DNA from: Pseudomonadota bacterium
GTDB lineage: Bacteria; Pseudomonadota; Gammaproteobacteria; Steroidobacterales; SZUA-146
NCBI GenBank assembly: GCA_039028935.1
Contig: JBCCHD010000028.1
Coordinates: 1 to 47,634 of the forward strand
Direction of reading: 5' to 3'
Length of the DNA stretch: 47,634 bases
Shown: one piece after another, positions 6,301-47,021 of the stretch
Layout: each line of letters begins with the position of its first letter
Numbering within the stretch: position 1 is the first letter of the stretch
Translations under genes and position numbers: made by a program
The notes under the pieces: model-generated
Seen by the model: the letters and a program-made list of their open reading frames with translations, nothing else
What the model was told of the DNA's origin: nothing
The model's database searches: none

Positions 6301-6847
6301 CGACGCCGTCACCGTGTATGCCGTAGTCGGCGAGACACTCCGTGCGGTCATCCTGCCCCCCTTCGTCAAGGTCGTCCTCATCGGCGGGAAACAATAGGCC
6401 CCACGTGCCGCCTTCACCCTCGAGTCGAAATTGCGCAATACGGTCGGTGTAACGTCCCGCGCTTACGAGCGACGACTGTCCGCTCTGGCAGACGAACGAG
6501 CGCGTTTCAATCCACTGGTTGGTGTCGACTTCACTGGCGTCGAGAAAATCGATGGAGTCGAGTGGTGTGACCGTGTAGAACAGACGAAGCGGGAAGCCGA
6601 ACGCCTCGTGCACATCAAACGGGCCCGTGTAGTCGACCGTGCTGTCGTAGGGTGCCACTGTGCTGTCGAGAAACACTTCGGAGGCCATGCTGCCCGAGGT
6701 GTCGATGACCAGCGTGACGTTGGGGCCGGCAAAGTCCTGCACTTGCCCGACCAGTGTTTCGATGTCAGATGCGTGAGCGGGTGCACAGAGCGCGGCACCG
6801 TACAGTAGGCTGGCAAGACAGGTCGTGTAAAAAGAATTCGTTTTCAT
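3326..6847 (-). CDS. pilY1: PilY1 type IV pilus tip adhesin / assembly factor
   Basis: The product has 1173 residues, typical for PilY1. A signal peptide of about 26 residues ends in PAHA. A von Willebrand A-like domain follows, whose MIDAS motif DTSGS sits at residues 49-53. The C-terminal half is the PilY1 beta-propeller, with repeats such as LLLVFGSNDGYLHAID, WIYAGMRRGGRSYYAFD and VYIADAKTGDLIW. A calcium-loop motif DTDNDGYVD lies near residue 877, within the segment that regulates pilus extension and retraction in Pseudomonas. PilY1 acts at the pilus tip or outer surface, in adhesion, surface sensing and pilus priming with the minor pilins. It lies between a small CxxC protein and pilE in the same operon. 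The start ATG at 6847 gives a clean signal peptide. Confidence 0.95.
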   Translation of the reverse strand: MKTNSFYTTCLASLLYGAALCAPAHASDIETLVGQVQDFAGPNVTLVIDTSGSMASEVFLDSTVAPYDSTVDYTGPFDVHEAFGFPLRLFYTVTPLDSIDFLDASEVDTNQWIETRSFVCQSGQSSLVSAGRYTDRIAQFRLEGEGGTWGLLFPADEDDLDEGGQDDRTECLADYGIHGDGVGDGTFPINLDSLPTDGTTEPFPWSADPNDPQLINWAQTSTRYTFFTPNYLNWIYEREQNSDAVVLTRLEIVQEVATDLVVALSERSLANNDGLRLGLMRFSANGGGGMVLAPTTDIASGNANLINKIQALSASSSTPLAETIYESYLYHAGGTPRFGLSTTPSTSVAEALDGGQYKSPIVAACQRNYMILLTDGLPNGDFEADADIAALTGGCADGSCLDEMTQFMSTADLATGSGFSGTQSVETFIIGFFTDSTLLQNATTAQVDTSDDGIDEPDTPGYFLANNREQLRTAFDDIFGVNGIQGSVATFTAPAVSVNTLNRFTNRDTLYFTLYQPSPSGEPHWDGNLKAYKIGRTTTGGDIQILDADGNPAVDPGTGLFRDAARSIWSNTPDGSEVAEGGVAERLSADRKIYSNLTTNKNLSADDNRISRDNVDAIGALPGMPTGDELLQLIDFTAGLDADGMSRRTLGDPLHSQPLVINFDGGPDDLLLVFGSNDGYLHAIDPTQGAATTNDLEEFAFIPKELLPEQVKLKANLPAYNAVDNKTYGMDGPINFWIENDDGDFVVESGGERLWIYAGMRRGGRSYYAFDMTDRASPSLEFVIDNGRTGYSNLGQTWSSASVGKIKLGNTERDVLIFGGGYDPNQDSSNSADAIGNSVYIADAKTGDLIWSAGGTGTGADLVLSEMTHSIPSDVRIIDTDNDGYVDRLYVGDMAAQVWRFDINPDETTLDAQITGGRLADLGGNGSANERRFFSAPSVSRYVEDGRSFLAIGLGSGYRAHPLETTINDNFYVLRDDNVFSPALGPNGDPEYGDANADLLTTELDLIALTLNGIQDGSTSIDATTGFGRGWFLSLDAGAGEKSLSSAVTAEGRIFFTTYSPQNQALSCDPVAATGLGRFYGIDILSGLPALYDDALASPPIASVELGPTGIPPQPRLVFVEPDCEGCTINPGDPADDGLLVLPTTADIIAQVGTQAFNVGLASKPVRTYWVEF

Positions 6848-9344: not shown

Positions 9345-9929
9345 TTAGCTCGTGGCACACGACGGTGCCGCTACGCCAAAATCATTGCGGTTTAACACGC
9401 GAGGGCGGCCATTATTCGACAAGCTCAAAACACGCGAGTAGCGGTCGTCGCCATCGGCGCCGCAAAAGACAATAAAGCGGGCGTCACCACCGACCACCGG
9501 TAACGCGGCAAAACCGGTCGGTAGGTAGGTGATGTTCTCCTCGACGTCGTCGTCGGCGATCACCGTTAACCCGCCCTTAAGCGAGTTCTGCGTCTGCACA
9601 ATCTGATCGCCGGTACCATATGTGCCGTCGCCGTCGTTGTCGGCAAACACAATCCAGCCGTCGGTCCAGTCTCCGCCGGTGCACGATTCATTGCCGGCGT
9701 TCATCGCGTTGTTGGACGTACACATAATGACAGGGGTGCCGCGCTTGCTGGCCTCGGATCGACTGATGTGCATGGCGGTCACGAGCAGATTGACCGCGCT
9801 GGTCAACTGGCCGTTCTTATATTGGTTGATGAACGATGGCACGCCGAATCCAATGAGCACGCCGGCTACTGAAATGGTGACCAATAGTTCTAACAATGTC
9901 AGACCGCGTTGATGACTGCCCATACCCAT
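9345..9929 (-). CDS. GspH/FimT-family minor pseudopilin (second fimT-like gene)
   Basis: After the leader MGMGSHQRG comes LTLLELLVTISVAGVLIGFG, a prepilin signature with the LTLLELL variant common in FimT and FimU. The GspH/FimT domain follows: SEASKRGTPVIMC, DWTDGWIVFADNDGDG, and a C-terminal FSLSNNGRPR-like stretch (LSLSNNGRPRVLN). The frame is open to 10079, but the ATG at 9929 is chosen because it gives a short leader and the upstream part looks non-coding; ATG 9923 is an alternative and neither has a strong ribosome site. The product has about 194 residues. FimT-like pilins take part in the tip complex, and some bind DNA for natural uptake; binding is not shown here. Confidence 0.87.
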   Translation of the reverse strand: MGMGSHQRGLTLLELLVTISVAGVLIGFGVPSFINQYKNGQLTSAVNLLVTAMHISRSEASKRGTPVIMCTSNNAMNAGNESCTGGDWTDGWIVFADNDGDGTYGTGDQIVQTQNSLKGGLTVIADDDVEENITYLPTGFAALPVVGGDARFIVFCGADGDDRYSRVLSLSNNGRPRVLNRNDFGVAAPSCATS

Positions 9930-10130
9930 TTTTTGCCCGTAGCCCTGGTTTGCGACATAACGAGTATACGGGGCAAAAGTGTGACCGGCGTCACAAATTC
10001 CGACGAACGGGCGGTTTTGACTGACAAACGGTATTACATAATTCCATGTTTTCGCTGGCTTTTTCACCATAAGCGGCATCGCGGCGCGTTATGTCATACC
10101 GTGCCTCCTTGTCGGCGCGGTGTCACCAAC

Positions 10131-10751
10131 TCAGGTGCCAACGCATTCGATAACGCTGCCGTCGGCCTGGCGGGTGGCCGTTCGGGGCCGGCCGTTGTAA
10201 CTCACGATCACCGCTTTGGGTGTGGCGGCGTCCCGGGCGCAAAACACGACCGTGCCGTTGGTGGCTCGCTTGTTGTTGGGGCGAAAGCGAAATGCGCGGC
10301 GGTTCGATTGCGGTACGAGTGATACCTCGTTCATCGTTTGCACAACCTCCAGTTGTGGTGAGTCGAGCGGCGCTTCGTGCTGGTCCGGCGATCGCATAAC
10401 GAGCCAGCCTCGGGACCAGTCGCCGTCCAGGTCGCAATACGGACCGTCCGCCTTTGGGCAAACGATTGCGTGCGTACGTTGGGTAATCGCGATGGATCGA
10501 GCCAGCAGTACGCTGGTCACAAAACGATTGACCGCCGCTGACTGTCGGCCGTTGGCGAGCACTGTCGACCAAGAGGGTAGCGCGTATGTCAGCAAAAGAG
10601 TGCCCACCGCGAGTGTGACGAGCAGTTCAAGCAGGGTGAGTCCGCGCTCTCCGACGAGCGCACATCGACTGTGTGGCGTTACTGTGTTGTGTTGACAGGC
10701 GGCTGCAGATCGGTGTGGGCAGTGAGCCGATGAGTGTTTATGCACGTTCAT
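10131..10751 (-). CDS. GspH/FimT-family minor pseudopilin (first gene of the minor-pilin operon)
   Basis: The 206-residue product has an unusually long leader of about 36 residues ending GERG, then LTLLELLVTLAVGTLLLTYA. The domain shows the FimT/GspH hallmarks: AITQRTHAIVC, DWSRGWLVM, and a closing strand AVIVSYNGRPRTA. The ATG at 10751 is the only upstream ATG and has no clear ribosome site, so a nearer start may be used. Together with the gene at 9345 this makes two fimT-like genes in tandem; in Pseudomonas fimT and fimU hold the same positions. The gene opens the minus-strand pilus operon and is divergent from the glycine oxidase gene. Confidence 0.85.
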   Translation of the reverse strand: MNVHKHSSAHCPHRSAAACQHNTVTPHSRCALVGERGLTLLELLVTLAVGTLLLTYALPSWSTVLANGRQSAAVNRFVTSVLLARSIAITQRTHAIVCPKADGPYCDLDGDWSRGWLVMRSPDQHEAPLDSPQLEVVQTMNEVSLVPQSNRRAFRFRPNNKRATNGTVVFCARDAATPKAVIVSYNGRPRTATRQADGSVIECVGT

Positions 10752-32711: not shown

Positions 32712-32740
32712 TTGACCTAATTTGTTGAATTCTGGATTAT
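32712..32740 (+). promoter_or_regulatory. candidate promoter for the aceE-aceF-lpdA operon
   Basis: TTGACC (32712-32717) and GATTAT (32735-32740) are 17 bases apart and match the consensus at five and four of six positions. This leaves a leader of about 90 bases before the aceE ATG at 32839. Two direct copies of CTGGCGC (32751-32757 and 32761-32767) lie just after it and could be part of a regulator site. No PdhR-like palindrome is seen. Confidence 0.5.
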
Positions 32741-32741
32741 A
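32736..32741 (-). promoter_or_regulatory. consensus -10 for the divergent aminopeptidase gene
   Basis: On the minus strand the sequence is TATAAT, a perfect -10, about 32 bases before the GTG at 32703. Its -35 region is poor. It physically overlaps the -10 of the aceE promoter on the other strand, so the two transcripts may compete for polymerase. Confidence 0.45.
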
Positions 32742-32838
32742 CAGATTGTTCTGGCGCCGTCTGGCGCTTTATTCGAAACGCCTTTTTCGCTTGTCATTTC
32801 GCCGGTGTCCAGGCACTGGGACGAAGGGATCTTTTTTT

Positions 32839-35502
32839 ATGCGCGACGGTAAATCCAACCCCGATGTTGATCCGGCTGAAACCCGAGATTGGCTCGAGTC
32901 GATCGATTCGGTTTTGAAAGTTCACGGCCCCGAGCGGGCGCACTTTCTCATCGACCACCTGGTTGACCACACGCGACGCTCGGGGGCGTATTTGCCGTTT
33001 ACGCCAAATACCGCGTATCTCAACACCCTGCCGGTGGGCCAAGAGCCCGTCTATCCCGGCGACATAGCCATTGAGAAACGCATTCTGGCCTATCTGCGCT
33101 GGAACGCCATGGCGATGGTGGTGCACGCCAACAAGCTCAGTTCTGAGTACGGCGGCCATATCGCGAGCTACGCCTCATCCGCCGTCCTGTATGAAGTGGG
33201 CTTCAATCATTTTTGGCGCGCCCGAACGAAAGACTTTTTGGGCGACATGGTGTTTATTCAAGGTCACGTATCGCCAGGTATTTATGCGCGCGCTTTTCTA
33301 GAAGGTCGTCTTGAAGAAGAGGATCTATTGCGGTTCCGCCAAGAAGTGGGCGGGGGCGGTCTATCGTCCTATCCGCACCCGTGGCTGATGCCCAATTTTT
33401 GGCAGTTCCCCACGGTGTCCATGGGACTGGGCCCGATGATGGCCATCTACCAAGCGCGATTCATGCGCTACATGCAAAACCGAGATTTGCTCAAGTTTCA
33501 GGATCGTAAGATCTGGTGCTTCCTCGGCGATGGTGAAATGGATGAGCCCGAGAGCCTCGGCGCCATTACCATGCCGGTGCGTGAAAAACTCGACAATCTG
33601 ATTTTTGTCGTGAACTGCAACCTGCAGCGTCTCGACGGTCCGGTGCGCGGTAACGGCAAGATTATTCAGGAGCTCGAGGCCGCGTTTACGGGTGCGGGCT
33701 GGAACGTGATCAAAGTGGTGTGGGGGTCGCGCTGGGATCCCTTGCTGGCCAAAGACCACAAGGGCCTGTTGCGCAAACGCATGGAAGAGGCCGTGGACGG
33801 TGAGTATCAGAATTTCAAAGCGAAGGGCGGTGCCTACACGCGTGAACACTTCTTTGGCAAATACCCGGAGCTCAAAGCCATGGTGGCCAACATGTCCGAC
33901 GAAGACATTTGGCGACTGAATCGCGGTGGGCACGATATGCAAAAAGTGTATGCCGCCTACGCCGAAGCCATAAAACCCACCGGTCGACCCACTGTGATTT
34001 TGGCCAAAACGGTCAAAGGGTTCGGTATGGGGAGCGCCGGCGAAGGGCAGAACATCACGCATCAGAAGAAAAAACTCGACGAGCAGGCGCTGCGCGATTT
34101 TCGCGATCGTTTCAATATTCCGGTGAGCGATAAAGACCTGCTTGAAGTCCCTTTTTGCAAACCGCCCAAAGACAGCGACGAGATGAAATACCTCAAGTCG
34201 CATCGTGAGCGGCTTGGCGGTTCGCTGCCGGCGCGCACCACATCCGCACCGTCGCTGGAAGTGCCGGCACTGTCGGATTTCGATGTGCAGTTAAAAGGAA
34301 CCGGCGAGCGCGAAGCATCTACCACCATGGCCATGGTGCGAATTGTCACACAGCTCATAAAAGACAAGAACATCGGCAAGCATATTGTACCGATCGTGCC
34401 GGATGAAGCCCGCACCTTCGGCATGGAAGGCATGTTTCGTCAGGTGGGTATTTACTCGTCGATGGGGCAGCTCTACACACCGCAAGACGCCGACCAGCTC
34501 ATGTATTACCGTGAAGACAAGAAAGGTCAGATTCTTCAAGAGGGCATCAACGAGGCCGGCGCCACGTGTTCTTGGATCGCGGCAGGCACCTCCTATTCCA
34601 ACCATGGCGTGAGCGCGATTCCGTTTTATCTTTTCTATTCGATGTTCGGTTTCCAGCGTGTCGGTGATTTTATGTGGGCGGCTGCGGATATGCAGGCGCG
34701 TGGTTTCTATATCGGCGGTACAGCCGGGCGCACCACGCTCGCCGGGGAAGGATTGCAACACCAAGACGGACACAGTCTGGTGCTCGCGTCCACTATCCCT
34801 AACTGTCTCGCCTACGATCCGGCTTATGCCTATGAGCTTGCTGTGATTGTGCAGGACGGTCTGCGGCGCATGCACCAAGAGCAGGAGAACGTGTTCTATT
34901 ACCTCACGTGCATGAACGAAAACTATCTGCATCCGGCGATGCCTGACGGTGTCGAAGAGGGCATTCTGCGGGGCATGTACCGTCTACGCGAGGGCAGCAA
35001 AGGTAAACTGCGAGTGCAGCTTTTCGGCTCAGGCACGATCTTGCGCGAAGTGCTGGCCGCCAGCGATTTGCTGGCTGATGAGTTTGATCTGCCGTCGGAC
35101 GTATGGAGTGTCACCAGCTACACCGAGTTGCGTCGCGATGGCGCGGAGAAAGACCGCTGGAACATGCTCCATCCCGGCAGCACCCCGCGCAAACCGTATG
35201 TTGCCGAATGCCTGGACGGTCTCAATGGGCCCTTTATTGCCGCCAGCGACTACATGAAAATTGTGCCGGATCAAATCCGCAATTGGGTGCCCGGGCGATA
35301 TTGTGTGCTGGGCACCGATGGGTTTGGTCGAAGCGACGGCCGGGCCGCCTTGCGCCGTCACTTCGAAGTCGACCGCTACTACATTGCGGTGAGTGCACTC
35401 AACGCGTTGGCTGAGGAGGGCGCAATCGGGGCCGACAAGGTCAAGGAAGCCATCCGAAAATTTGGTGTGGATGTGAGTAAACCCAACCCGAGTTCGGTGT
35501 AG
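32839..35502 (+). CDS. aceE: pyruvate dehydrogenase E1 component (homodimeric)
   Basis: AceE decarboxylates pyruvate with thiamine diphosphate and transfers the acetyl group to the E2 lipoyl arm. From the ATG at 32839 the product has 887 residues, the same length as E. coli AceE. The open frame reaches back to 32722, but that part is basic and unlike the family, and AAGGGA stands nine bases before 32839. The ThDP motif runs from GDGEMDEPES to NCNLQRLDGPV; other signatures are GHVSPGIYARAFLEGR and ILQEGINEAGATCSW. It is the first gene of a three-gene operon, nine bases before aceF. Confidence 0.98.
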   Translation: MRDGKSNPDVDPAETRDWLESIDSVLKVHGPERAHFLIDHLVDHTRRSGAYLPFTPNTAYLNTLPVGQEPVYPGDIAIEKRILAYLRWNAMAMVVHANKLSSEYGGHIASYASSAVLYEVGFNHFWRARTKDFLGDMVFIQGHVSPGIYARAFLEGRLEEEDLLRFRQEVGGGGLSSYPHPWLMPNFWQFPTVSMGLGPMMAIYQARFMRYMQNRDLLKFQDRKIWCFLGDGEMDEPESLGAITMPVREKLDNLIFVVNCNLQRLDGPVRGNGKIIQELEAAFTGAGWNVIKVVWGSRWDPLLAKDHKGLLRKRMEEAVDGEYQNFKAKGGAYTREHFFGKYPELKAMVANMSDEDIWRLNRGGHDMQKVYAAYAEAIKPTGRPTVILAKTVKGFGMGSAGEGQNITHQKKKLDEQALRDFRDRFNIPVSDKDLLEVPFCKPPKDSDEMKYLKSHRERLGGSLPARTTSAPSLEVPALSDFDVQLKGTGEREASTTMAMVRIVTQLIKDKNIGKHIVPIVPDEARTFGMEGMFRQVGIYSSMGQLYTPQDADQLMYYREDKKGQILQEGINEAGATCSWIAAGTSYSNHGVSAIPFYLFYSMFGFQRVGDFMWAAADMQARGFYIGGTAGRTTLAGEGLQHQDGHSLVLASTIPNCLAYDPAYAYELAVIVQDGLRRMHQEQENVFYYLTCMNENYLHPAMPDGVEEGILRGMYRLREGSKGKLRVQLFGSGTILREVLAASDLLADEFDLPSDVWSVTSYTELRRDGAEKDRWNMLHPGSTPRKPYVAECLDGLNGPFIAASDYMKIVPDQIRNWVPGRYCVLGTDGFGRSDGRAALRRHFEVDRYYIAVSALNALAEEGAIGADKVKEAIRKFGVDVSKPNPSSV

Positions 35503-35511
35503 GAGAGCCTT

Positions 35512-37119
35512 GTGAGTGATCGCATCGAAGTACGCGTACCCGATTTGGGCGATTTCAGTGATGTCGAAGTCATCGAGGTATTGGTCGAACCGGGTCAAAC
35601 GGTGGACGCCGAAGAGGGCCTTATTACACTCGAGACCGATAAAGCGGCGATGGATGTGCCGTCGCCTCACGCGGGCAAGGTGCTTGAGCTTACCGTAGCG
35701 CTGGGTGATACGGTGTCTGAGGGGCACGTGATACTCACGCTTGAAGTAGCGGCCAGTGCCGACGCGGTCGACACCGCCACGGACGACGCGCAGGCGGATG
35801 AGGCCATTTCGAATGTGGCCGCGTCGGCGGAACCGTCTTTGGTCAATGTGGCGGTACCCAACCTGGGCGATTTCGACGATGTCGAAGTCATCGAGGTGCT
35901 CATGAAAGCGGGCGATCGGGTCGACGTGGATACGCCTCTGCTCACGCTGGAAACCGATAAGGCAACGATGGATGTGCCTTCCGAGGTTAGTGGCACCATC
36001 GAGTCGGTGTCGGTTTCGGTCGGCGATCGCGTGTCGGCGGGCGCGGTCGTGGCGACCTGCCTGGCGGACGCAGCGGCGCAATCACCCGCCGCGCCGGCAA
36101 TCGACGCGACGCCGGCACCCACTCCCGCGCCCGCACCAACAGCGGCTACGTCCAGCCCGCCCGCGCCTGCGACCGGCGCCGCGCCGGCCGCGTTACCCCC
36201 GATCAGTGAAGCGACCTTTAAACTCGCGCACGCCAGTCCTGCCGTGCGGAAGTTTGCCCGTGAACTGGGCGTTGACCTTGGTAGAGTGACCGGGTCCGGT
36301 GTGAAGTCGCGCATCAGCAAAGACGACGTTAAAGCGTTCGTCAAGTCGGTGATGATGGGCGGGTCGGCCTCGGTGGGATCGGCGTTGCCCGAACTGCCGT
36401 CTGTGGATCACGCAAAATTTGGCGACATCACGTTAGAGCCACTGTCGCGTATCCAGAAAATCTCGGGGCCTCGCCTGCACGCCAGCTGGGTCAATATTCC
36501 GCACGTAACGCAAAACGATCTCGGTGACTTCACCGCGACTGAGGCGCGCCGCAAAGAAATGAAAGCCGCCGCCGCCGACCAGGATATCAAGCTCACCCCA
36601 TTGGCATTTGTGGTGCGCGCTTGTGTGATTGGGCTGACCGAATTTCCATTGTTTAATGCATCGCTGTCCGATGACGGTAAAGCGATGGTCATGAAGGACT
36701 ACATCAATATTGGCTTTGCTGCCGACACGCCAAACGGACTCATGGTGCCGGTGATTCACAACGCCGAGTCACTCGGTGTTCTCGAGATTGCGAAGGCGCT
36801 GGGTGAACTCTCGTTGAAAGCGCGGGAAGGCAAGCTTAAGGCTACCGACATGCAAGGCGGTACGTTCACCGTGTCGAGTTTGGGTGGTATCGGTGGAACC
36901 TCGTTCACGCCCATTATTAACCCGCCGGAAGTGGCGATACTCGGCGTTTCGCGCTCGGCCATGCAGCCGGTGTACATCGACGGTCAATTTGAGCCGCGAC
37001 TGATGCTGCCGCTGTCGCTGTCTTATGATCACCGCGTGATCGATGGGGCAAGCGCCGCCCGATTTACCGCGCGCTTGGCCGCGTTAGTCGGTGATATCGA
37101 CGCACTGGTGTCCGCATGA
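35512..37119 (+). CDS. aceF: dihydrolipoamide acetyltransferase (PDH E2), two lipoyl domains
   Basis: This is the 535-residue core of the pyruvate dehydrogenase complex. Two lipoyl domains (about 3-77 and 105-180) carry the lipoylated Lys in ETDKAAMDVP and ETDKATMDVP. A Pro/Ala-rich linker (about 190-230) follows, then a peripheral-subunit-binding domain (SPAVRKFARELGVDL). The acetyltransferase domain closes with SYDHRVIDGA, holding the catalytic His and Asp. The start is a GTG at 35512 after AGGAGAG. Its stop overlaps the start of lpdA by four bases. Confidence 0.97.
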   Translation: MSDRIEVRVPDLGDFSDVEVIEVLVEPGQTVDAEEGLITLETDKAAMDVPSPHAGKVLELTVALGDTVSEGHVILTLEVAASADAVDTATDDAQADEAISNVAASAEPSLVNVAVPNLGDFDDVEVIEVLMKAGDRVDVDTPLLTLETDKATMDVPSEVSGTIESVSVSVGDRVSAGAVVATCLADAAAQSPAAPAIDATPAPTPAPAPTAATSSPPAPATGAAPAALPPISEATFKLAHASPAVRKFARELGVDLGRVTGSGVKSRISKDDVKAFVKSVMMGGSASVGSALPELPSVDHAKFGDITLEPLSRIQKISGPRLHASWVNIPHVTQNDLGDFTATEARRKEMKAAAADQDIKLTPLAFVVRACVIGLTEFPLFNASLSDDGKAMVMKDYINIGFAADTPNGLMVPVIHNAESLGVLEIAKALGELSLKAREGKLKATDMQGGTFTVSSLGGIGGTSFTPIINPPEVAILGVSRSAMQPVYIDGQFEPRLMLPLSLSYDHRVIDGASAARFTARLAALVGDIDALVSA

Positions 37120-38849
37120 GCGAACCCACCATCATTCAGGTGCCCGAACTTGGCGACTTCGACGAAGTGGAAATCATCGACGTTCTGGTTCGACCGGGCG
37201 ATCAAGTTCACAAAGAAGATGCGCTGGTCACACTGGAAACGGACAAAGCGGCCATGGACGTGCCGTCGCCGTTTACCGGGCGGTTGATCGAGGTCAGTGT
37301 CAAAACAGGCGATAAGGTCTCGACTGGCGACACCATTGCGCTCATTGCCGTATCGGTGGATGAGGAGCAGGCGCCGCCTGTCGATGAACCCACACTCACG
37401 TTGCCCGGGGCGCCCGAGGGCAGCACCTACACCGGTCAAGTGGACAACAAATGTGAGCTACTTGTGCTCGGTGCGGGTGTGGCCGGCTATACGGCCGCTT
37501 TTCGCGCCGCCGATCTTGGCATGGACGTCACACTGGTTGAACGCTGGCCATCCTTGGGCGGAGTGTGTCTCAATGTTGGCTGCATCCCATCGAAAGCGCT
37601 GCTGCACGCCGCCAAAGTCATCGATGATGCCGCGGCAATGGCCCATCACGGCATCACGTTTGGCGCGCCGAAGGTTGATACCGAAAAACTGGTGAGCTGG
37701 AAAAACTCGGTAATCGGTAAACTCACACAAGGTCTTTCGGGGTTGGCAAAGCGACGCAAGGTGCGTGTCGCTCCCGGAGTTGGCACGTTTTTGTCGAGCC
37801 ATCACATCGAAGTGACCAATTCAGGTGGTAGCGAAGTCATCGCCTTTGAGCAATGTGTCATTGCCGCGGGGAGTGAGCCGGTTAGCTTGCCGTTTATTCC
37901 CGACGATCCGCGTGTGATTGATTCCACCGGGGCGCTTGAGCTCGAAGAGTTACCCAAACGCCTGTTAGTTATCGGGGGCGGTATTATTGGGCTTGAGATG
38001 GCGGCGGTGTATTCCTCGCTCGGTGTTCAAATTTCGGTGGTAGAACTGACCGATCAGCTCATACCGGGTTGTGATGCGGACTTAGTTAAACCTTTGCATC
38101 AGCGCATTAAGAAGCGCTACGAAAACATTTGGCTCAACACCAAAGTGACGCTCGTCGAGAGCAAGTTGGACGGAATGGAGGTCACCTTCGAGCGCGATGG
38201 TGAACGCTATGTCGACACCTTTGGGCGTGTGCTGGTGGCCGTCGGTCGACGTCCAAACGGTGCGCTTATTGGTGCCGAAAACGCGGGTGTCACAGTGGAT
38301 AATCGCGGCTTTATCCCATCGGATCAGCACATGAAAACCAACGTACCGCACATTTACTCCATCGGTGACGTGCGCGGTAATCCCATGCTTGCCCACAAGG
38401 GCAGTCATGAAGGCAAGGTGGCGGCCGAGTGTGCACACGGCCTCAAACGGGCCTTCGATGCGCGCGTTATTCCCTCGGTCGCCTACACCGACCCTGAAGT
38501 CGCGTGGGTAGGGCTGACGGAAACGGACGCGCGCAACAACAACGTGCCGTATGAAAAAGGAACCTTTCCTTGGGCGGCTAGCGGTCGCGCGTTAGCGCTT
38601 GGTGTTGATAGTGGCCTGACCAAGTTGCTGTTTGATCCTGATACGCATCGCGTCATTGGCATGGGGGCAGTCGGTCCACACGCCGGTGACCTGGTGGCCG
38701 AAGCGGCGCTGGCCATCGAAATGGGCTGCGATGCCGAAGACATCGGACTCACTATCCATGCGCACCCAACGTTATCCGAGACAGTGGCGATGGCGGCCGA
38801 GATGTTTGACGGCTCCATCACCGATTTGATCGCGCCCAAGAAGCGTTAG
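37116..38849 (+). CDS. lpdA: dihydrolipoamide dehydrogenase with N-terminal lipoyl domain (PDH E3)
   Basis: E3 reoxidises the lipoyl arms of E2 with FAD and NAD. The 577-residue protein is longer than the usual 475 because residues 1-80 form a lipoyl domain with ETDKAAMDVP, closely like those of AceF. The FAD motif is LVLGAGVAGYTAAFRAADLG, the redox disulfide CLNVGC, the NAD motif VIGGGIIGLEMAAVYSSLG and the C-terminal catalytic His-Glu region HAHPTLSE. The ATG overlaps the aceF TGA (ATGA), so the two are translationally coupled. E3 proteins with a lipoyl domain are known in some bacteria, such as Neisseria and Ralstonia. Confidence 0.97.
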   Translation: MSEPTIIQVPELGDFDEVEIIDVLVRPGDQVHKEDALVTLETDKAAMDVPSPFTGRLIEVSVKTGDKVSTGDTIALIAVSVDEEQAPPVDEPTLTLPGAPEGSTYTGQVDNKCELLVLGAGVAGYTAAFRAADLGMDVTLVERWPSLGGVCLNVGCIPSKALLHAAKVIDDAAAMAHHGITFGAPKVDTEKLVSWKNSVIGKLTQGLSGLAKRRKVRVAPGVGTFLSSHHIEVTNSGGSEVIAFEQCVIAAGSEPVSLPFIPDDPRVIDSTGALELEELPKRLLVIGGGIIGLEMAAVYSSLGVQISVVELTDQLIPGCDADLVKPLHQRIKKRYENIWLNTKVTLVESKLDGMEVTFERDGERYVDTFGRVLVAVGRRPNGALIGAENAGVTVDNRGFIPSDQHMKTNVPHIYSIGDVRGNPMLAHKGSHEGKVAAECAHGLKRAFDARVIPSVAYTDPEVAWVGLTETDARNNNVPYEKGTFPWAASGRALALGVDSGLTKLLFDPDTHRVIGMGAVGPHAGDLVAEAALAIEMGCDAEDIGLTIHAHPTLSETVAMAAEMFDGSITDLIAPKKR

Positions 38850-38901
38850 CGCGCGTTAACGCCAACACTCGCGTGGTGTGGGTGATGGGATGGAGGTAAC
38901 T

Positions 38902-40617
38902 ATGCATCGACACGCCTATCGGCGTCTGTTCGCTCTCGTCCTGATGAGCGCCATGTTGGCGGGCTGTCAGGTGTCAACGTCACCCCGCTCGGACCACGCA
39001 TCGCTTGTTGCCGAACCAGCGCGCACCGCTGCGGTCGCCATGCCGGATGAGTACGGTGCGCGAGTGAGCGAAGCCATTTTGCGTCAGGGCGGAAATGCGG
39101 TGGATGCCGCGATTGCTGCGGCGTTTGCGCTCGCCGTCACCTATCCCGAAGCGGGCAACATCGGCGGCGGTGGTTTCATGCTCATCCACATCGATGGACG
39201 CAATCACTTTTTGGATTACCGCGAAAAAGCCCCGGGTCACGCGTCGCGCGATATGTACCTGGACGCACAAGGGGAGGTGATAGAAAACGCCAGCCTCATC
39301 GGTAATCGTGCTGCTGCGGTGCCGGGGACCGTCGCTGGTTTATACGAGGCACACACCCGCTTTGGAACGATGCCCTGGGATGCATTGATCGATCCTGCCA
39401 TTGAGCTTGCCGAGAACGGTTTTGTGATGCCTGAATCGCTGGCTGAGTCCATCGCCGACATGCGCGAGTGGCTGGGCGATCAAACCAATTTTTTTGATTA
39501 TTTCGGAGAGGCCAGCGCAGGCGAACGGTTTCGACAGCCCGAGCTTGCTCAGACACTTCGGCGAATTGCGAAGTGGGGGCCCGATGGCTTCTATCAGGGG
39601 GTGGTGGCCCAACAACTGGTCGACGCATTGCAACCCAATGGACTCATTTCACTCGAGGATCTTGCGGCCTACGAGGCCGTATGGCGTCAACCGTTGATCG
39701 CCGAGTGGCGTGGTTACACACTCGTGTCCGCACCCCCGCCGAGTTCCGGTGGCTTTGCGGTCGTGCAGTTGCTAAAAATGAAAGATGCCTTGGCGCATGA
39801 GTTTGAGGGCAAGGCGCACAACTCAGCGCCGTACGTGCACTTAGTCGCTGAAATGGAAAAGCGCGTGTTTGCGGATCGCGCTGAGTATCTTGGTGATCCA
39901 GACTTTGTCGATGTGCCAATCGATGCATTGATCGATGACGAGTACATTCAAGCGCGCGCGCACGATGTCAATCCGCGTGCGATCTCCCGTCTGGCCGCGG
40001 TGCCGCCGGGGTTTGAGTCGGCGGACACCACGCACTTCTCAATTGTCGATGGGGACGGTAATGCCGTGGCCAACACGTATACGATTAATTGGCATTTTGG
40101 CAGCGGTGTTGTCGTCGAAGGCGGCGGATTTTTACTGAACAACGAAATGGATGATTTTAGTGTTAAGCCAGGTGTGCCAAACGTGTATGGGGTCGTCGGC
40201 AATTCGGCCAATGCCATCGCGCCACATAAACGCAGTCTGTCTTCCATGTCGCCAACGATGCTGTTGCAAAATGGCGAGGTTGATTTAGTGGTGGGTACGC
40301 CCGGTGGCTCGACTATTTTCACCTCTGTGTTTCAGGTTATTGTGAATGTGCTCGACTTCAATATGACCCCGCAGCAGGCGGTGGACGCGAGCCGTTTTCA
40401 TCATCAACTTCTGCCGCCGGACCTCGTGACGTACAGTCCTAGCCGGCCGCTGCGGCCCGACGTGCAGTCGAGTCTGAGCAAAAGCGGTTATCGCACTGAG
40501 CCGCATAGCTGGGAGTTTGGCGATCTGCAGTTAATCGTTCGAGACGGCGAGACACTGATTCCGGCGTCGGATGCCAGGCAGCGTGGCGTGTCGCGCGTGA
40601 TTGCCTTACCTCGATAG
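38902..40617 (+). CDS. ggt: gamma-glutamyltransferase, predicted lipoprotein
   Basis: The enzyme cleaves gamma-glutamyl bonds such as that of glutathione and can transfer the glutamyl group. It is made as a precursor that cuts itself before a Thr; the expected site is in ESADTTHFSIVD. Other signatures are GGNAVDAAIAAAFALAVTYP, GNIGGGGFM, PPSSGG and SMSPTM. From the ATG at 38902, with GGAGGT just upstream, it has 571 residues and a lipobox LAGC (Cys22), so it would be anchored facing the periplasm or outer membrane; most Ggt proteins are soluble in the periplasm. It follows lpdA by 52 bases and precedes a second lipoprotein hydrolase by nine. Confidence 0.93.
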   Translation: MHRHAYRRLFALVLMSAMLAGCQVSTSPRSDHASLVAEPARTAAVAMPDEYGARVSEAILRQGGNAVDAAIAAAFALAVTYPEAGNIGGGGFMLIHIDGRNHFLDYREKAPGHASRDMYLDAQGEVIENASLIGNRAAAVPGTVAGLYEAHTRFGTMPWDALIDPAIELAENGFVMPESLAESIADMREWLGDQTNFFDYFGEASAGERFRQPELAQTLRRIAKWGPDGFYQGVVAQQLVDALQPNGLISLEDLAAYEAVWRQPLIAEWRGYTLVSAPPPSSGGFAVVQLLKMKDALAHEFEGKAHNSAPYVHLVAEMEKRVFADRAEYLGDPDFVDVPIDALIDDEYIQARAHDVNPRAISRLAAVPPGFESADTTHFSIVDGDGNAVANTYTINWHFGSGVVVEGGGFLLNNEMDDFSVKPGVPNVYGVVGNSANAIAPHKRSLSSMSPTMLLQNGEVDLVVGTPGGSTIFTSVFQVIVNVLDFNMTPQQAVDASRFHHQLLPPDLVTYSPSRPLRPDVQSSLSKSGYRTEPHSWEFGDLQLIVRDGETLIPASDARQRGVSRVIALPR

Positions 40618-40626
40618 GTGCGGTCG

Positions 40627-42024
40627 ATGACGTCAAGCCGATTGCGTAGCCCGTGGATGTTTCTTGCGCTCATCCTTACGCTCTGTGGCTGTGCGGGGTC
40701 GCCCAATCGCCCCGATCTTGCCCGACTCTACGCGCATCAAGCCGACGATTCGGCCATCGTACCCGTAGTGCTGATTCACGGCATGCTCGGCGCCCGCCTG
40801 TATAACCATGACACGCAAAATGAAATCTGGCCAGGCTCGCTGCGCCGCTTACTCTTTGACGATTATCGGGCGTTAGAGCTCGACATCAGCCAGCGCGATG
40901 CGGTGTTGGTGCCGTCATCCTTAACCCCTTCCGGCATTACCGATGGGGCGGGCGGCCGCGATTTTTATGGCCGCATCATCAAAGTGTTAAGCGGTGCGGG
41001 CGGTTATGACATAACTGAAATCGGCACTCCAGCGAACGGCAATCGTCGCCGCTTGTATGTGTTCGACTACGATTGGCGTCAAGATAATGTGTACAACGTA
41101 CGACGATTGCACGCATTCATCGAAGCGATTCGCCGCGATCACAACGCCGAAGATCTGAAAGTGGATGTAGTCGCGCACAGTATGGGCGGACTCATCACGC
41201 GTTACTATGCGCGATATGGCACTCAAGATGTGTTGGATGACAACGCGTTTCCGGTCAATCTGGAAGGCGCAAGTCGATTGCGTCGCGTGGTGTTGTTAGG
41301 CACGCCAAACTTTGGCTCGGTGCTGGCGGCGGATATTCTCGACAAGGGAATGCGTGTCGGTTTTGGTACGATCGCGCCCGAAGTTGTCGCCACCTTTCCA
41401 AGTGCCTATCAAGTGTTGCCACACGCTTTGCACGCGTGGTTGCTCGATATGCAAGGCGAAGCGCTGTCGCACGATATTTTCGATGTTGAATTTTGGCGCG
41501 ATCACCAGCTGTCGATTTTCCACCCAAAAGTGCGCCAACGCATTGTCGAGGCAGCGGCCTCACCGGCGCAAGGGCGTGCTCGTTTTGAGGCGTTTGAAGC
41601 ATTTTTCGATCGCAGTTTGGAACGTGCTCGGCGCTTCACGTGGTCGTTGACCGTCACCCTTGATCAAGTGCCGATTCGTTACGGGGTGTTTGGTGGTGAT
41701 TGCGCGCTGACGCCCACCCGTATGGTGTTGGAGCCAGTCGACGAGCATCACCACTTACGCCTGGAGCCCAAAGACATTAAACACAAACAACCCGGCATCG
41801 ACTATGAGCGGCGCATGCTCGAGCCGGGCGACGGTACGGTGAGTAAAGCCTCACTGTTGGCTAGGCAGAGTAGCGATCCGACCATTGCGCGGCATCGTTA
41901 CAGCTTCTTTCCGCTGGGTTACGCGTTCTTTCTTTGCGAAGACCATCAAACCCTCACAGGCAACATCAGTTTTCAAGATAATTTGCTCAATGCGCTGTTG
42001 TCTGCCGACCACAATCAATATTGA
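40627..42024 (+). CDS. LCAT-like alpha/beta-hydrolase lipoprotein
   Basis: The 465-residue product begins with a lipoprotein signal ending LCGC (Cys22). It then shows an alpha/beta-hydrolase fold: oxyanion region VVLIHGMLGARL, nucleophile Ser in VAHSMGGLITRYYARYG, and PNFGSVLA. The late DGTVSK segment is like the acid-residue region of the lecithin:cholesterol acyltransferase family, and a His follows in ARHRYS. It is probably a phospholipase or acyltransferase acting at the cell envelope; the substrate is not evident. The frame opens with a GTG at 40618, but AGG lies about eight bases before the ATG at 40627, which is preferred. It is co-transcribed with ggt. Confidence 0.82.
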   Translation: MTSSRLRSPWMFLALILTLCGCAGSPNRPDLARLYAHQADDSAIVPVVLIHGMLGARLYNHDTQNEIWPGSLRRLLFDDYRALELDISQRDAVLVPSSLTPSGITDGAGGRDFYGRIIKVLSGAGGYDITEIGTPANGNRRRLYVFDYDWRQDNVYNVRRLHAFIEAIRRDHNAEDLKVDVVAHSMGGLITRYYARYGTQDVLDDNAFPVNLEGASRLRRVVLLGTPNFGSVLAADILDKGMRVGFGTIAPEVVATFPSAYQVLPHALHAWLLDMQGEALSHDIFDVEFWRDHQLSIFHPKVRQRIVEAAASPAQGRARFEAFEAFFDRSLERARRFTWSLTVTLDQVPIRYGVFGGDCALTPTRMVLEPVDEHHHLRLEPKDIKHKQPGIDYERRMLEPGDGTVSKASLLARQSSDPTIARHRYSFFPLGYAFFLCEDHQTLTGNISFQDNLLNALLSADHNQY

Positions 42025-42099
42025 ACTGCCGGTGCGAACGACGCTCTAAATGAGTGGTATGAACGGTTTCGATACAGGCATGATGCTATTTGACTGAGA

Positions 42100-42118
42100 T
42101 TTCGGGTAATCCCCGAAA
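42100..42118. repeat. small hairpin after the LCAT-like gene
   Basis: TTTCGGG and CCCGAAA pair perfectly around TAATC. No T-run follows on the plus strand, so it is a weak candidate as terminator. A perfect -35 hexamer TTGACA at 42168-42173 follows, but no good -10 stands 16-18 bases after it; the protease gene promoter may be here. Confidence 0.4.
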
Positions 42119-42226
42119 AAACAGGATTTTGTATCGCGTGTTTTGTGATTGGTTCCTTTGTGAAGTCTTGACAAAACGCTTATGGTCTGTGGAATTAACG
42201 TGACATAAAAACGGATGGATTGGTTT

Positions 42227-44941
42227 ATGCGAACACTCGCCATTAGGCTGTTTCTCTTTTCCGCGCTGGCGCTCGCGCTCATGTCGCCGGCATCCGCGGT
42301 GGAGCGCGTTGCCTCGGAGGCTCGCTATGTCGAGGAGCCGCTCAGTTTTCGCCAAGCGCTCGATTTTCGCTCGGAGTCCCCGCTGTCGCTGACACGGCTT
42401 GATCAACAGAAGCTTGTTGCGGAGGATGCGCAGCGTGCTCAAGCCGGGCAGCCGGTGCGTGTTGCTGTGAAACGAAACGTTCCGGTTCTTGACCGATCTC
42501 AAGGCCGATGGACACAGGTAGACGAGACGTCGATCTGGCGACTGGAAGTGAATGCGGGGGACGCTCAGTGGCTGAGCTTTGCCTTTGAGAACGTGTTTTT
42601 GCCCCCGGGTGCAGCGCTCTTTGTCTACAGCGATGATCATCGTCAACTGCTTGGTCCGTACACCGAAGCCGACAACAAGTCGCACAAGAAACTTTGGACC
42701 GCCATGATCGAAGGGCAATCGGCGGTGATTGAAATTAACGTGCCCACTCGTATGAAACCCTTTTTGACGTTTGATCTTAAGAGTGTCAATCATGGTTACC
42801 GCGATTTGAAATCGCTGAGTACACCCAAAGCGGGCGCGTGCAACATTGATGTTGTGTGTCCGCAAGGGGATGATTGGCGCGATCAGATTCGATCGGTTGC
42901 GCGCTACATCTTCGATAGCCAAGGCGGCACGTTTACCTGCACGGGCAATATGGTCAACAACGCAACTGGCGATCGCAAGCCGTATTTTTTAACGGCCAGC
43001 CACTGTGTGTCGACAGCAGCCGAAGTGCAGTCCATGGTGCTGTTTTGGAATTTCGAAAAATCAATGTGCGGCGGACCCAACGACGGTTCTCAAGCGCAGA
43101 GTCAGAGCGGCGCGACACTGTTGGCCACGATCGGTAGTTTGGATGGTCCAGAGCCACGGTTTGATATGACACTGGTCGAACTGGATACGACGCCGCCGGA
43201 TTCGTTCAATGTTCGTTGGACCGGTTGGGACACCACGGACACCACGCCGAGTTCAGGCGTGAGTATTCACCATCCCGACGGTACAGAAAAACGCATTAGC
43301 GTTGACTCAGGTCCAATCATTAACACCAATTTTGGTTCCACCGCGCCCAATCCCAATAGCGTGCATATTATGATCGCGGCTTGGGACGAGGGCACAACAG
43401 AGGGTGGCTCATCCGGCTCTGGTTTTTGGAACCAAGACCAGCGTCTGGTTGGGGTGCTGTCTGGTGGTGGTGCGTCGTGTGACACGCCGGACGCACCCGA
43501 TTTTTATGCCCATCTCGCGTCACATTACGATGTGGGCACAACGTCAGCGACGCGGCTGAAAGCGTGGCTCGATCCGGATGATACGGGCATCACGCTAGTA
43601 GATGGTGTCGACGCATGTGACCCACCGACGGTCTCGTTCTCCATTAATCCCAATCCGGCGCAGGCCAATGAACTTGTCACCTTCACATCCACCGTGTCGG
43701 GCACGGGACCGTTCACCTATGCCTGGGATTTCGATGGGGACGATGTGGTGGACAGCACACTGCCTTCGCCAACACACACCTATACCAGCGCCTACGTGGG
43801 CAATGTGACCCTCGAGGTGACGGCAACCCAAACCTGCACCGCGAGCAGCTCGCGCAGCATTATTGCGTTTCCACCAGGCGGCAATAGCCCACCAGAAGCC
43901 GTCGCCACCATCACATCGGCCACGGCCGATGAACGAACGACGGTGCAACTTGACGCATCCGGCAGTAGCGATCCGAACGGCGATGCACTGACTTATTCCT
44001 GGCGGCAGTCTGCGGGGCCGAATGCGACCATCGCAAACAGCTCGGCGGCGGTCACAAACGTCACGCTGCCCGACATTACGGGAGATACCTCGGCGACATT
44101 TGAAGTGACGGTCACCGACGTGTTTGGTGCGTCGGACATCGCGACGGTCACGGTCAGTATTGTGAATGTGAATCGCGCGCCAACGGCTACCGTCTCGCAG
44201 GTGGTGCTGTCAGCCAACGAGGGCGCGTCGGTCATGCTCAACGCGGTTGCCAGCAGTGATCCCGATGGCGACGCCGTAACGTTTGCCTGGAGCCAGACCG
44301 CCGGCCTGGCCGTAACGCTCAACAATCCGACGTCAGCCACCGCCTCGTTCACGGCGCCTGAGGTCTCGGCGGCCACCAGTCTGACTTTCAGCGTGACCGT
44401 TACCGATCCGGGTGGGCTGTCCGATTCGGCCAGTATGAGCGTGACGGTTAACGATACAACACCACCACCCAGTAGTGGCGGCGGCGGTGGCGGCGGTGGC
44501 GCCGCGGGAATGTTTGGGTTGTTGCTCGTGTTGTTTGCTGCCGTGCGTCGCCACAGGCGATGGTCACCGCTTGTGGCCGGTGTCGCGCTCGTTTCACTCG
44601 GCGCCTGCAGTACACCGGACACGAACTACGACGAAGTGCCTACCGGGGTGTCGGTGCAGTCTGCCGACGCTGGCGACGTCCTGACGCTGACCCTGCGAGA
44701 CGGTCGCAAGCAGACCGCGCGAATCACGGACGCACAGACCGTGCGCGCGATAGCGACCGCGTTTAATGAACGAGAGCGCCGCTACGAAAAAATTAAACCA
44801 CTGTTTGAATACGAACTCGAAATGGACATGGATGGCCAAACGCAAACCTGGCTAGTCAGTCCCAAAGGCTATGTTCAGCAAGCCGGATCCTATGAGTTAT
44901 ACCGAGTCGACATGGCGACATTGGCCCCGCACATGCGCTAA
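42227..44941 (+). CDS. secreted lysyl-endopeptidase-like protease with PKD domains, GlyGly-CTERM-like segment and C-terminal lipoprotein-like extension
   Basis: From the ATG at 42227 (GGAT seven bases upstream; an ATG at 42215 is possible) the product has 904 residues. A signal peptide ends SPASA; a propeptide follows. The protease domain has His259 in TASHC, Asp313 in RFDMTLVEL and Ser396 in GGSSGSGFW, like the Achromobacter lysyl endopeptidase family. Then come a PKD domain (PFTYAWDFDGDDVVDS) and two cadherin/PKD-like repeats (DASGSSDPNGDALTYSW, VASSDPDGDAVTFAW). Eight Gly (751-758), a hydrophobic helix and RRHRR form a GlyGly-CTERM-like signal, normally the end of such proteins. Here the frame continues through LVSLGACSTP, a lipobox with Cys794, into a domain of about 110 residues I do not recognise. 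Confidence 0.88.
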   Translation: MRTLAIRLFLFSALALALMSPASAVERVASEARYVEEPLSFRQALDFRSESPLSLTRLDQQKLVAEDAQRAQAGQPVRVAVKRNVPVLDRSQGRWTQVDETSIWRLEVNAGDAQWLSFAFENVFLPPGAALFVYSDDHRQLLGPYTEADNKSHKKLWTAMIEGQSAVIEINVPTRMKPFLTFDLKSVNHGYRDLKSLSTPKAGACNIDVVCPQGDDWRDQIRSVARYIFDSQGGTFTCTGNMVNNATGDRKPYFLTASHCVSTAAEVQSMVLFWNFEKSMCGGPNDGSQAQSQSGATLLATIGSLDGPEPRFDMTLVELDTTPPDSFNVRWTGWDTTDTTPSSGVSIHHPDGTEKRISVDSGPIINTNFGSTAPNPNSVHIMIAAWDEGTTEGGSSGSGFWNQDQRLVGVLSGGGASCDTPDAPDFYAHLASHYDVGTTSATRLKAWLDPDDTGITLVDGVDACDPPTVSFSINPNPAQANELVTFTSTVSGTGPFTYAWDFDGDDVVDSTLPSPTHTYTSAYVGNVTLEVTATQTCTASSSRSIIAFPPGGNSPPEAVATITSATADERTTVQLDASGSSDPNGDALTYSWRQSAGPNATIANSSAAVTNVTLPDITGDTSATFEVTVTDVFGASDIATVTVSIVNVNRAPTATVSQVVLSANEGASVMLNAVASSDPDGDAVTFAWSQTAGLAVTLNNPTSATASFTAPEVSAATSLTFSVTVTDPGGLSDSASMSVTVNDTTPPPSSGGGGGGGGAAGMFGLLLVLFAAVRRHRRWSPLVAGVALVSLGACSTPDTNYDEVPTGVSVQSADAGDVLTLTLRDGRKQTARITDAQTVRAIATAFNERERRYEKIKPLFEYELEMDMDGQTQTWLVSPKGYVQQAGSYELYRVDMATLAPHMR

Positions 44942-46217: not shown

Positions 46218-47021
46218 ATGCAAAGACGCACAACAATAGGATTTTGTTTGGCTATGTTGCTGACACTGTCAGCGCAGGCCGCCGAACTCAGCTATTCAGG
46301 TGAAGTGACCGATGTAACGGGCGCGTTCGTCGCGTTAACGCCGGTCGGAACGGAAGTGGGTGGACCGATTGAAGTCGATGATGCCGCGTTGGCAGCCGGC
46401 AGCATCGGCATTGCTGATATCACGAGCATCAACGTCAACGTGGGCGGCTTTTGTTTTGCCACGGGTGGTGGCGATTGCGGTGGAGTGGGCGCACCTGTGC
46501 CGATCACGAGTATCGACAGCGCGGCGATTACTGGTACCTCCGGTATACTCGGTGGTTCCTTTTCGGTGACGGCGTTTTCACCGACGTTTATGGTGTCGAT
46601 TCCGATCGAATTTGATCTGGACAACGGCAGTTTTTCCGCGGATGGCGATGCGCTCGGAACGGTCGCCGGCATTGGTATGCTCGAAGCGGCTGCGCCTCCG
46701 GCTGATACGGACGCCGATGGTGTGGGTGACTTAACCGACAACTGCACGTTAGTGCCGAACCCCGACCAAATCGACACCAACGGTGATGGTATTGGCAATC
46801 GCTGTGACGCCGATGTCAACAATGACTGCATTATCAATTTCATCGACATTTCGATGTTTACGCCACGTTTTAATACAGCGACTGGTGATCCAGGTTATGA
46901 TCCGGATTACGATATTGACAGCAGCGGCTCGCTGAACTTTGTCGATTATATTGCCTACACCAGCAACTTTCAGATGACGCCTGGGCCAAGCGCCACGCCG
47001 TGTGGTGTGCCGTCTCAGTAG
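46218..47021 (+). CDS. secreted protein with TSP3/dockerin-like tail, N-terminal domain unknown
   Basis: The ATG at 46218 follows GGGAGGGAAG. The 267-residue product has a signal peptide ending SAQA. An N-terminal domain of about 140 residues is rich in Gly, Val, Thr and Ser with a single cysteine pair (GGFCFATGGGDC), and reads like a beta-sandwich; I do not recognise it. From about residue 163 the TSP3 repeats (DTDADGVGDLTDNC, DTNGDGIGNRCDAD) and two dockerin-like motifs (NNDCIINFIDI, SSGSLNFVDY) follow, ending PGPSATPCGVPSQ. The tail is shared with the proteins at 17352 and 19096, though its last part differs. A weak TATACT at 46141-46146 could be a -10. A strong terminator follows. Confidence 0.82.
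   Translation: MQRRTTIGFCLAMLLTLSAQAAELSYSGEVTDVTGAFVALTPVGTEVGGPIEVDDAALAAGSIGIADITSINVNVGGFCFATGGGDCGGVGAPVPITSIDSAAITGTSGILGGSFSVTAFSPTFMVSIPIEFDLDNGSFSADGDALGTVAGIGMLEAAAPPADTDADGVGDLTDNCTLVPNPDQIDTNGDGIGNRCDADVNNDCIINFIDISMFTPRFNTATGDPGYDPDYDIDSSGSLNFVDYIAYTSNFQMTPGPSATPCGVPSQ

Follow-up and report, generated by a model that had tools for sequence, protein, structure and literature searches.

The window analysed here is the whole 47,634-nucleotide stretch of contig JBCCHD010000028.1, from a gammaproteobacterial genome, and the element in question is a single open reading frame (ORF) of 904 residues on its forward strand. The ORF opens with a putative signal peptide and a serine protease domain of the S1 type, which scores 32.6 bits against PF00089 (Pfam cut-off 20.6) and 33.3 bits against PF13365 (cut-off 27.6) and in which TASHC, DMTLVE and GGSSGSG were recognized by eye as the triad motifs. 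PKD/Ig-like repeats follow, and then a tail with the parts of a GlyGly-CTERM sorting tag as judged by sequence and hydropathy: a Gly-rich motif, a hydrophobic helix and a basic cluster (Table 1). The tag is not at the extreme C-terminus. RRHRR (44546-44560) and WSP lead directly into a second hydrophobic sequence, LVAGVALVSLGA, and 126 residues lie downstream of RRHRR. The features of a lipoprotein-type signal are all present at this junction, namely a basic n-region, a hydrophobic stretch and a lipobox with its Cys (PROSITE pattern), in a signal that is internal (residues 774-794) rather than at the precursor N-terminus. An earlier note on this DNA had described the same layout of eight Gly, helix, RRHRR, second hydrophobic stretch, LGAC with Cys794 and about 110 further residues, and our reading of the window sequence confirms it. 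We propose, with a probability of about 72%, that the gene encodes a polyprotein in which two sorting signals stand back to back and which would yield two envelope proteins.

Table 1. Features of the 904-residue ORF in window coordinates
Feature	Position	Strand	Basis or remark
Single ORF, 904 residues	42227..44941	+	ATG 42227, with an alternative in-frame ATG at 42215; stop 44939-44941, no internal stops
N-terminal signal peptide MRTLAIRLFLFSALALALMSPASA	42227..42298	+	judged by eye
Trypsin-like serine protease domain	42929..43522	+	PF00089 and PF13365
PKD/Ig-like repeats	43622..44449	+	PF18911, PF22352 and PF17963 above Pfam cut-offs
Eight Gly codons, start of the tail	44477..44500	+	sequence; sister counterpart GGGGGG
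First hydrophobic helix AAGMFGLLLVLFAAV	44501..44545	+	best 11-residue hydropathy 2.9
In-frame GTG, possible independent lipoprotein start	44543..44545	+	no Shine-Dalgarno-like match; aligned sister codon not a start
Basic loop RRHRRWSP, closing the sorting tag and serving as putative n-region of the second signal	44546..44569	+	4 K/R, 0 D/E
Second hydrophobic stretch with lipobox SLGA/C	44570..44608	+	lipobox pattern match; Cys794 at 44606-44608, Ser at +2
Predicted mature lipoprotein from Cys794, linker and small alpha/beta domain	44606..44938	+	sister homologue; structure model

The same frame in a sister genome

The frame is also open in a second genome of the genus, a gammaproteobacterial metagenome-assembled genome whose contig QIGP01000247.1 carries the syntenic locus at about 60% identity. 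Its ORF runs continuously through GGGGGG, a helix, RRTRR, a hydrophobic stretch with VVAGC and LLFAC, and a homologous tail. Compared with the window, its protease has 200/261 identical residues, the Gly-helix-basic stretch 15/27, the second signal 10/16 and the tail domain 42/89. The earlier note had considered that a stop between two genes was lost, or that an indel was missed in the Gly-codon run. Because the sister keeps a continuous frame, both a lost stop and a sequencing error are refuted; the sister's Gly run consists of six codons with different codon usage and is likewise in frame, which excludes the suspected indel, and similar frames are open in other genomes. For the ratio of nonsynonymous to synonymous differences between window and sister (pN/pS), the protease gives 0.19 and the junction plus lipoprotein part 0.49 (pN 0.37, pS 0.74-0.76), values that, pS being saturated, indicate constraint and not a precise rate. 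Both the junction and the lipoprotein part are under constraint.

Apart from one interval, the sister stretch holds collinear homologues of window 32716-44938. The exception lies at window 38878-42024, opposite 6066-6352 of sister locus L013, where the flanks are the same and the sister is without a gamma-glutamyltranspeptidase-like gene and most of a lipase-like gene, both named by eye; of the lipase, only some 35 residues at the C-terminus are kept, at 94% identity. A third genome of the genus (G002, 84% complete) gave no match to the tail domain and none to the protease.

Several profile models bear on the identity of the tail. TIGR03501, the NCBI GlyGly_CTERM model of 22 positions (cut-off 15.5 bits), places the sister tail above its cut-off, with 17.6 bits in one search and 19.2 in another. 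The window tail is also aligned by longer models with a GlyGly tail at their end: the SVAGG model reaches 23.6 bits (whole-protein cut-off 150), and the NCBI model for rhombosortase-dependent M36 proteins matches residues 649-777, partially and far below its whole-protein cut-off. The last position of the M36 model falls within this range, and the window protein continues beyond it. MYXO-CTERM (TIGR03901) scores 19.2 bits, slightly below its cut-off of 20, and the window Gly motif is without the Cys that is invariant in the MYXO-CTERM motif. We rejected the lipo-invert family (NF058595 invert_tail, a putative C-terminal anchoring domain), which aligns weakly over the two helices with 13.7 bits against a cut-off of 37; none of 198 genomes of the class exceeded that cut-off, and weak background matches arose in 107 of the 198 and in 11 of 14 control genomes.

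The tail domain itself appears to be narrowly distributed. Searches of the order's genomes returned it in 2/296 and in 2/396, in both cases the window's own genome and the sister only, and a contig scan for two short conserved tail peptides turned up the sister alone. Relatives of the protease occur more widely, in 11 of 396 order genomes outside the genus (E 1e-10); the examined stretches of these distant relatives contain no such lipoprotein, several of the loci ending before the protein does. A structure model of the tail domain, built from two sequences with a mean pLDDT (predicted local distance difference test) of 74.9, gave best VIA Z scores of 8.3 (4q0y), 6.9 (4r7r, a putative lipoprotein) and 6.3 (2mct), a middling resemblance to small clostridial lipoprotein-like folds. 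Foldseek with this model returned no match at E 0.001 or better. A protease-inhibitor role was considered and dropped, chains of the Streptomyces subtilisin inhibitor type reaching only Z 3.0-3.5, which is too weak.

Run-on GlyGly-CTERM frames in other genes and genomes

The genome that contains the window has the enzyme expected to act on such a tag. The presence of a rhombosortase, which the earlier note had left to be looked for, is indicated by one TIGR03902 match above the curated cut-off (143.5 bits against 84), on contig C26 at 34814-35269; the same search gave weak matches in 14/14 control genomes and none above the cut-off. At E up to 1, TIGR03501 identified six proteins of this genome; five score above the cut-off, and four of the six end 1-8 residues past the match. 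The other two run on. One, on contig C20 and above the cut-off, continues for 641 residues from its Gly motif through a signal-like stretch, OMP_b-brl and OmpA; the other, on C30 and just below the cut-off at 14.8 bits, continues into LALGLSAAAMA and an OmpA-type barrel. With the window ORF included, three of the seven GlyGly-type proteins seen in this genome are fused.

This genome also holds three copies of one N-terminal domain (GAFVALTP..G...GGPI), at window 46218-47021 and at about 3637-4100 and 9848-10426 of locus L034. By eye, the proteins with this domain have three different ends: a dockerin-like one, a GlyGly tail with a barrel, and a PEP-CTERM-like tail.

Joined architectures, for which the earlier note had suggested a search of related genomes, were found both in the sister and well beyond it. 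In a survey of the order, we followed the frames of 110 GlyGly-CTERM matches from other genomes, drawn from at least 150 matches listed. Ninety came from ranks 1-92, skipping rank 74 (the sister, fused) and rank 86 (the window's own genome, L005, which stops), and 20 were hand-picked from ranks 93-150 with a leaning to long frames, so that this part is biased. Counted from 20 residues into the match, 100 of the 110 stop within 46 residues (median 8), one of the hand-picked is cut by a contig end, and nine run on (L060, L078, L085, L089, L116, L120, L140, L143 and L146), six from the 90 in rank order and three from the hand-picked 20. A class survey covered 70 matches, made up of 30 loci and the first 40 of the listed rows that came without a locus, the window's own genome and one row read as L127 being omitted. 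Two of these run on (L163 and L218), both into barrels, and the others stop within 58 residues; one entry, L181, repeats the order match L083, and L183 looks like a false positive (PAP2-like by eye).

All 11 run-on frames of the two surveys enter a hydrophobic signal-like stretch and then a protein of exported type. Pfam identifies OmpA-type barrels, TonB-dependent receptors and RHS repeats among the downstream halves; L120, whose contig ends early, was assigned to the barrels by BLASTP (as L158) and not by Pfam, and the barrel of L085 ends early. Of 206 order genomes searched with one OmpA-type barrel, eight have this family (the genome of the query is one of them), and every member is fused behind a GlyGly-type tail, in frames of 1079-3106 residues. 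Altogether we assembled 21 fused ORFs from eight family-level groups of Gammaproteobacteria (f1, f5, f6, f10, f15, f16, f23 and f82); they were selected for running on, and no rate can be derived from them.

Genes adjacent to unfused tags served as a rough control, the neighbouring ORFs being called mechanically. Beside 42 of the 100 unfused matches, an ORF of at least 80 residues starts between -25 and +100 bases from the stop. A hydrophobic N-terminus was seen in nine of the 42; two of these are near-identical, and at least one is more suggestive of a membrane protein. Several neighbours have lipoboxes by eye. Exported neighbours are a minority beside unfused GlyGly genes and the rule among fusions. 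The comparison suggests a fusion route from adjacent genes through overlapping genes to one chain.

The junctions share a common anatomy. In all 21 ORFs the loop that connects the two helices has 2-8 K/R and no D/E, a composition that the positive-inside rule predicts for a cytoplasmic turn. Behind the second helix, an A-x-A-like motif is found in 19/19 non-lipoprotein junctions, although this pattern is permissive and also matches both lipoprotein junctions. The lipobox pattern matches in 2/2 lipoprotein junctions, and a lipobox-like match occurs also in one barrel case (L233). When grouped by BLASTP with single linkage, the downstream halves fall into four unrelated groups (lipoprotein, barrels, TonB-dependent receptors and RHS) and the upstream halves into three, in part probably via shared repeats. 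From this grouping, the joint probably arose more than once.

Some of the fused proteins are very large. In L149, L150, L151 and L157, OmpA-type barrels or TonB-dependent receptors are preceded by giant proteins whose repeats Pfam classes as bacterial TSP3, Big_9, cadherin-like or Ig-like, and each may be regarded as a candidate pair of surface partners. In L156 (G191:C244), the frame of a GlyGly-tailed protein stays open through another signal-like stretch and some 1500 residues that include RHS repeats.

Processing of the chain and rival explanations

In the processing that we envisage, the N-terminal signal peptide would take the protease and PKD half through Sec, and the Gly run with the first helix would act as a GlyGly-CTERM tail that halts in the inner membrane, with RRHRR on the cytoplasmic side. 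This basic cluster would double as the n-region of the second, internal signal peptide; the chain would turn back into the membrane, forming a hairpin, and its tail domain would be exported. Rhombosortase would then cut near the glycines, sending the protease to the cell surface, and Lgt and LspA would process the lipobox to release a separate lipoprotein. Under the Lol rule, by which the +2 residue guides lipoprotein sorting, Ser at +2 suggests the outer membrane as its destination. In the relatives, signal peptidase I may act at the same place to release a barrel, a TonB-dependent receptor or an RHS-repeat protein. The benefit would be a fixed 1:1 supply of two envelope partners. By established topology, an outer-membrane barrel or receptor cannot remain joined to two inner-membrane helices, and because of this incompatibility at least one cut would be needed in the barrel and receptor fusions.

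Three other explanations were weighed. That a missed frameshift or a recently lost stop has joined two ordinary genes might be suspected from assemblies that are mostly in many contigs, and from the frequency with which an ORF closely trails a GlyGly gene. This is nevertheless highly improbable: for the window the sister already refutes it, its frame being open at about 60% identity, every member of the barrel family is fused, and the genome of one fused ORF (L140/L155, in G047) is a single contig, which argues against an error of draft assembly. Somewhat less improbable, though still unlikely, are nested genes in one frame, in which the functional lipoprotein or barrel arises from an internal start and run-on of the full chain is tolerated. 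The GTG at 44543 would give a textbook lipoprotein signal, and 15 of 21 junctions offer an ATG, GTG or TTG followed by a basic residue after the core of the first helix. However, six of the 21, the sister's among them, have no such codon, in the sister no start codon stands opposite GTG 44543, and with no stop in the frame the full chain would be made regardless and need disposal. Because of these six junctions, independent initiation is not a general explanation. The earlier note had observed that this GTG has no ribosome site, and indeed we found no Shine-Dalgarno-like match before it; we do not use this as an argument, since matches of at least 5 bases are non-discriminating, occurring at 3/21 junctions and with only 10 of the 43 long ORFs that these loci contain.

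The third explanation dispenses with the second cut. On this view the second stretch is a plain membrane helix and the protein stays in the inner membrane as a hairpin flanked by two periplasmic domains; a stable hairpin would likewise show two helices and a basic loop. We consider this a little less probable than nested genes, given that a lipobox is found in both species and A-x-A-like motifs in the other 19 ORFs, and that downstream barrels and receptors must reach the outer membrane. Of the two alternatives in the earlier note, a single chain that would be cut twice is favoured; its frame is continuous and conserved.

A number of observations weigh against a polyprotein. We infer both cuts from sequence, and GlyGly-CTERM has been described at the extreme C-terminus of proteins (PMC3237569). 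TIGR03501 does not report the window tail at E up to 10; because it misses this tail while the sister tail passes, 'GlyGly-CTERM-like' is the right wording for the window. The model is also not perfectly specific, as 5 of 14 control genomes match in the window-genome search, one above the cut-off, and in the order-survey search 1/14 controls again exceeds it. The rhombosortase search was aimed at the window's own genome alone. The exact pair of protease and lipoprotein is known from two sequences only, and in two distant protease relatives (L028 and L029) a Gly-rich tail is followed by a stop, without the lipoprotein. Weak relatives of the C30 barrel (36% and 32% identity) lie in short frames of 191 and 201 residues, indicating that standalone forms exist, and the 15 junctions with a usable start codon count here too. 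Considering all of this, we still favour the polyprotein for the window gene. We also lean, with less assurance, towards a recurrent class of envelope polyproteins in Gammaproteobacteria, in which one hairpin would combine the stop-transfer of a rhombosortase tag with an internal signal peptide and deliver, at 1:1, one protein anchored at the surface and a partner that is lipid-anchored or sits in the outer membrane, with at least four unrelated downstream partners.

Related systems and implications

Bacterial polyproteins cut at an internal signal sequence have a precedent in FbcH of Bradyrhizobium, the precursor of cytochromes b and c1, which differs from the window protein in belonging to a respiratory complex and having no sorting tag. 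In Haloferax, to go by the title of a 2017 report by Abdul Halim, an ArtA-processed Tat substrate reportedly bears a non-terminal tripartite tag; like that of the window it lies away from the C-terminus, but the enzyme is archaeal.

Among the GlyGly-CTERM/rhombosortase systems (PMC3237569, PMC6219818, PMC11389362, PMC13393428), VesB of Vibrio cholerae is the closest comparison. Rhombosortase cleaves VesB, which is joined to a glycerophosphoethanolamine-containing group and reaches the surface via type II secretion (PMC6219818). It is a serine protease, as is the upstream half of the window protein, and the window shares with these systems the Gly motif, helix, basic cluster and a rhombosortase in the genome. 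In contrast to the window, where the chain goes on after RRHRR, the VesB-type tag ends the protein.

The earlier note took the design to be undescribed, which requires correction. In MXAN_5598 of Myxococcus xanthus, an internal MYXO-CTERM is followed by an outer-membrane barrel and an OmpA domain; its authors propose processing and anchoring of the N-terminal portion, suggest that two genes have fused, and state that MYXO-CTERM motifs are internal in rare cases (PMC11980579). As in the window ORF, a large surface protein has an internal tag of C-terminal type, and the barrel with OmpA downstream is as in our barrel fusions. MXAN_5598 differs in its tag and enzyme (myxosortase), and the available part of that paper names one gene and does not mention lipobox or TonB-dependent receptor versions. 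TraA-TraB of myxobacteria resembles the fusions in pairing a sorted surface protein with an OmpA-domain partner that acts in the same pathway, and is unlike them in consisting of two genes that overlap by four bases (PMC3325183). In our survey, the unfused GlyGly-CTERM gene at L040 (G017:C6) overlaps the next signal-peptide gene by four bases, like the reported traA/traB.

The literature that we searched, which lacks most subscription papers, contained neither a GlyGly-CTERM nor a lipobox version of the internal-tag design; searches for bacterial polyproteins, internal lipoboxes or signal peptides, and lipo-invert gave nothing relevant by title. As far as these searches show, what is new beyond the MYXO-CTERM precedent is the use of GlyGly-CTERM, the variants with a lipobox, a receptor or RHS repeats, and the spread of the design.

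These results indicate that a sorting tag thought to end proteins can also occur in mid-protein. They raise the questions of whether rhombosortase needs a free C-terminus and whether signal peptidase can act on a signal that lies behind a membrane helix. If such tags also work within polyproteins, the lists of their substrates are incomplete. The downstream barrels, receptors and lipoproteins would then be currently misread as parts of giant proteins, and the fusions would point to likely partners of surface proteins.

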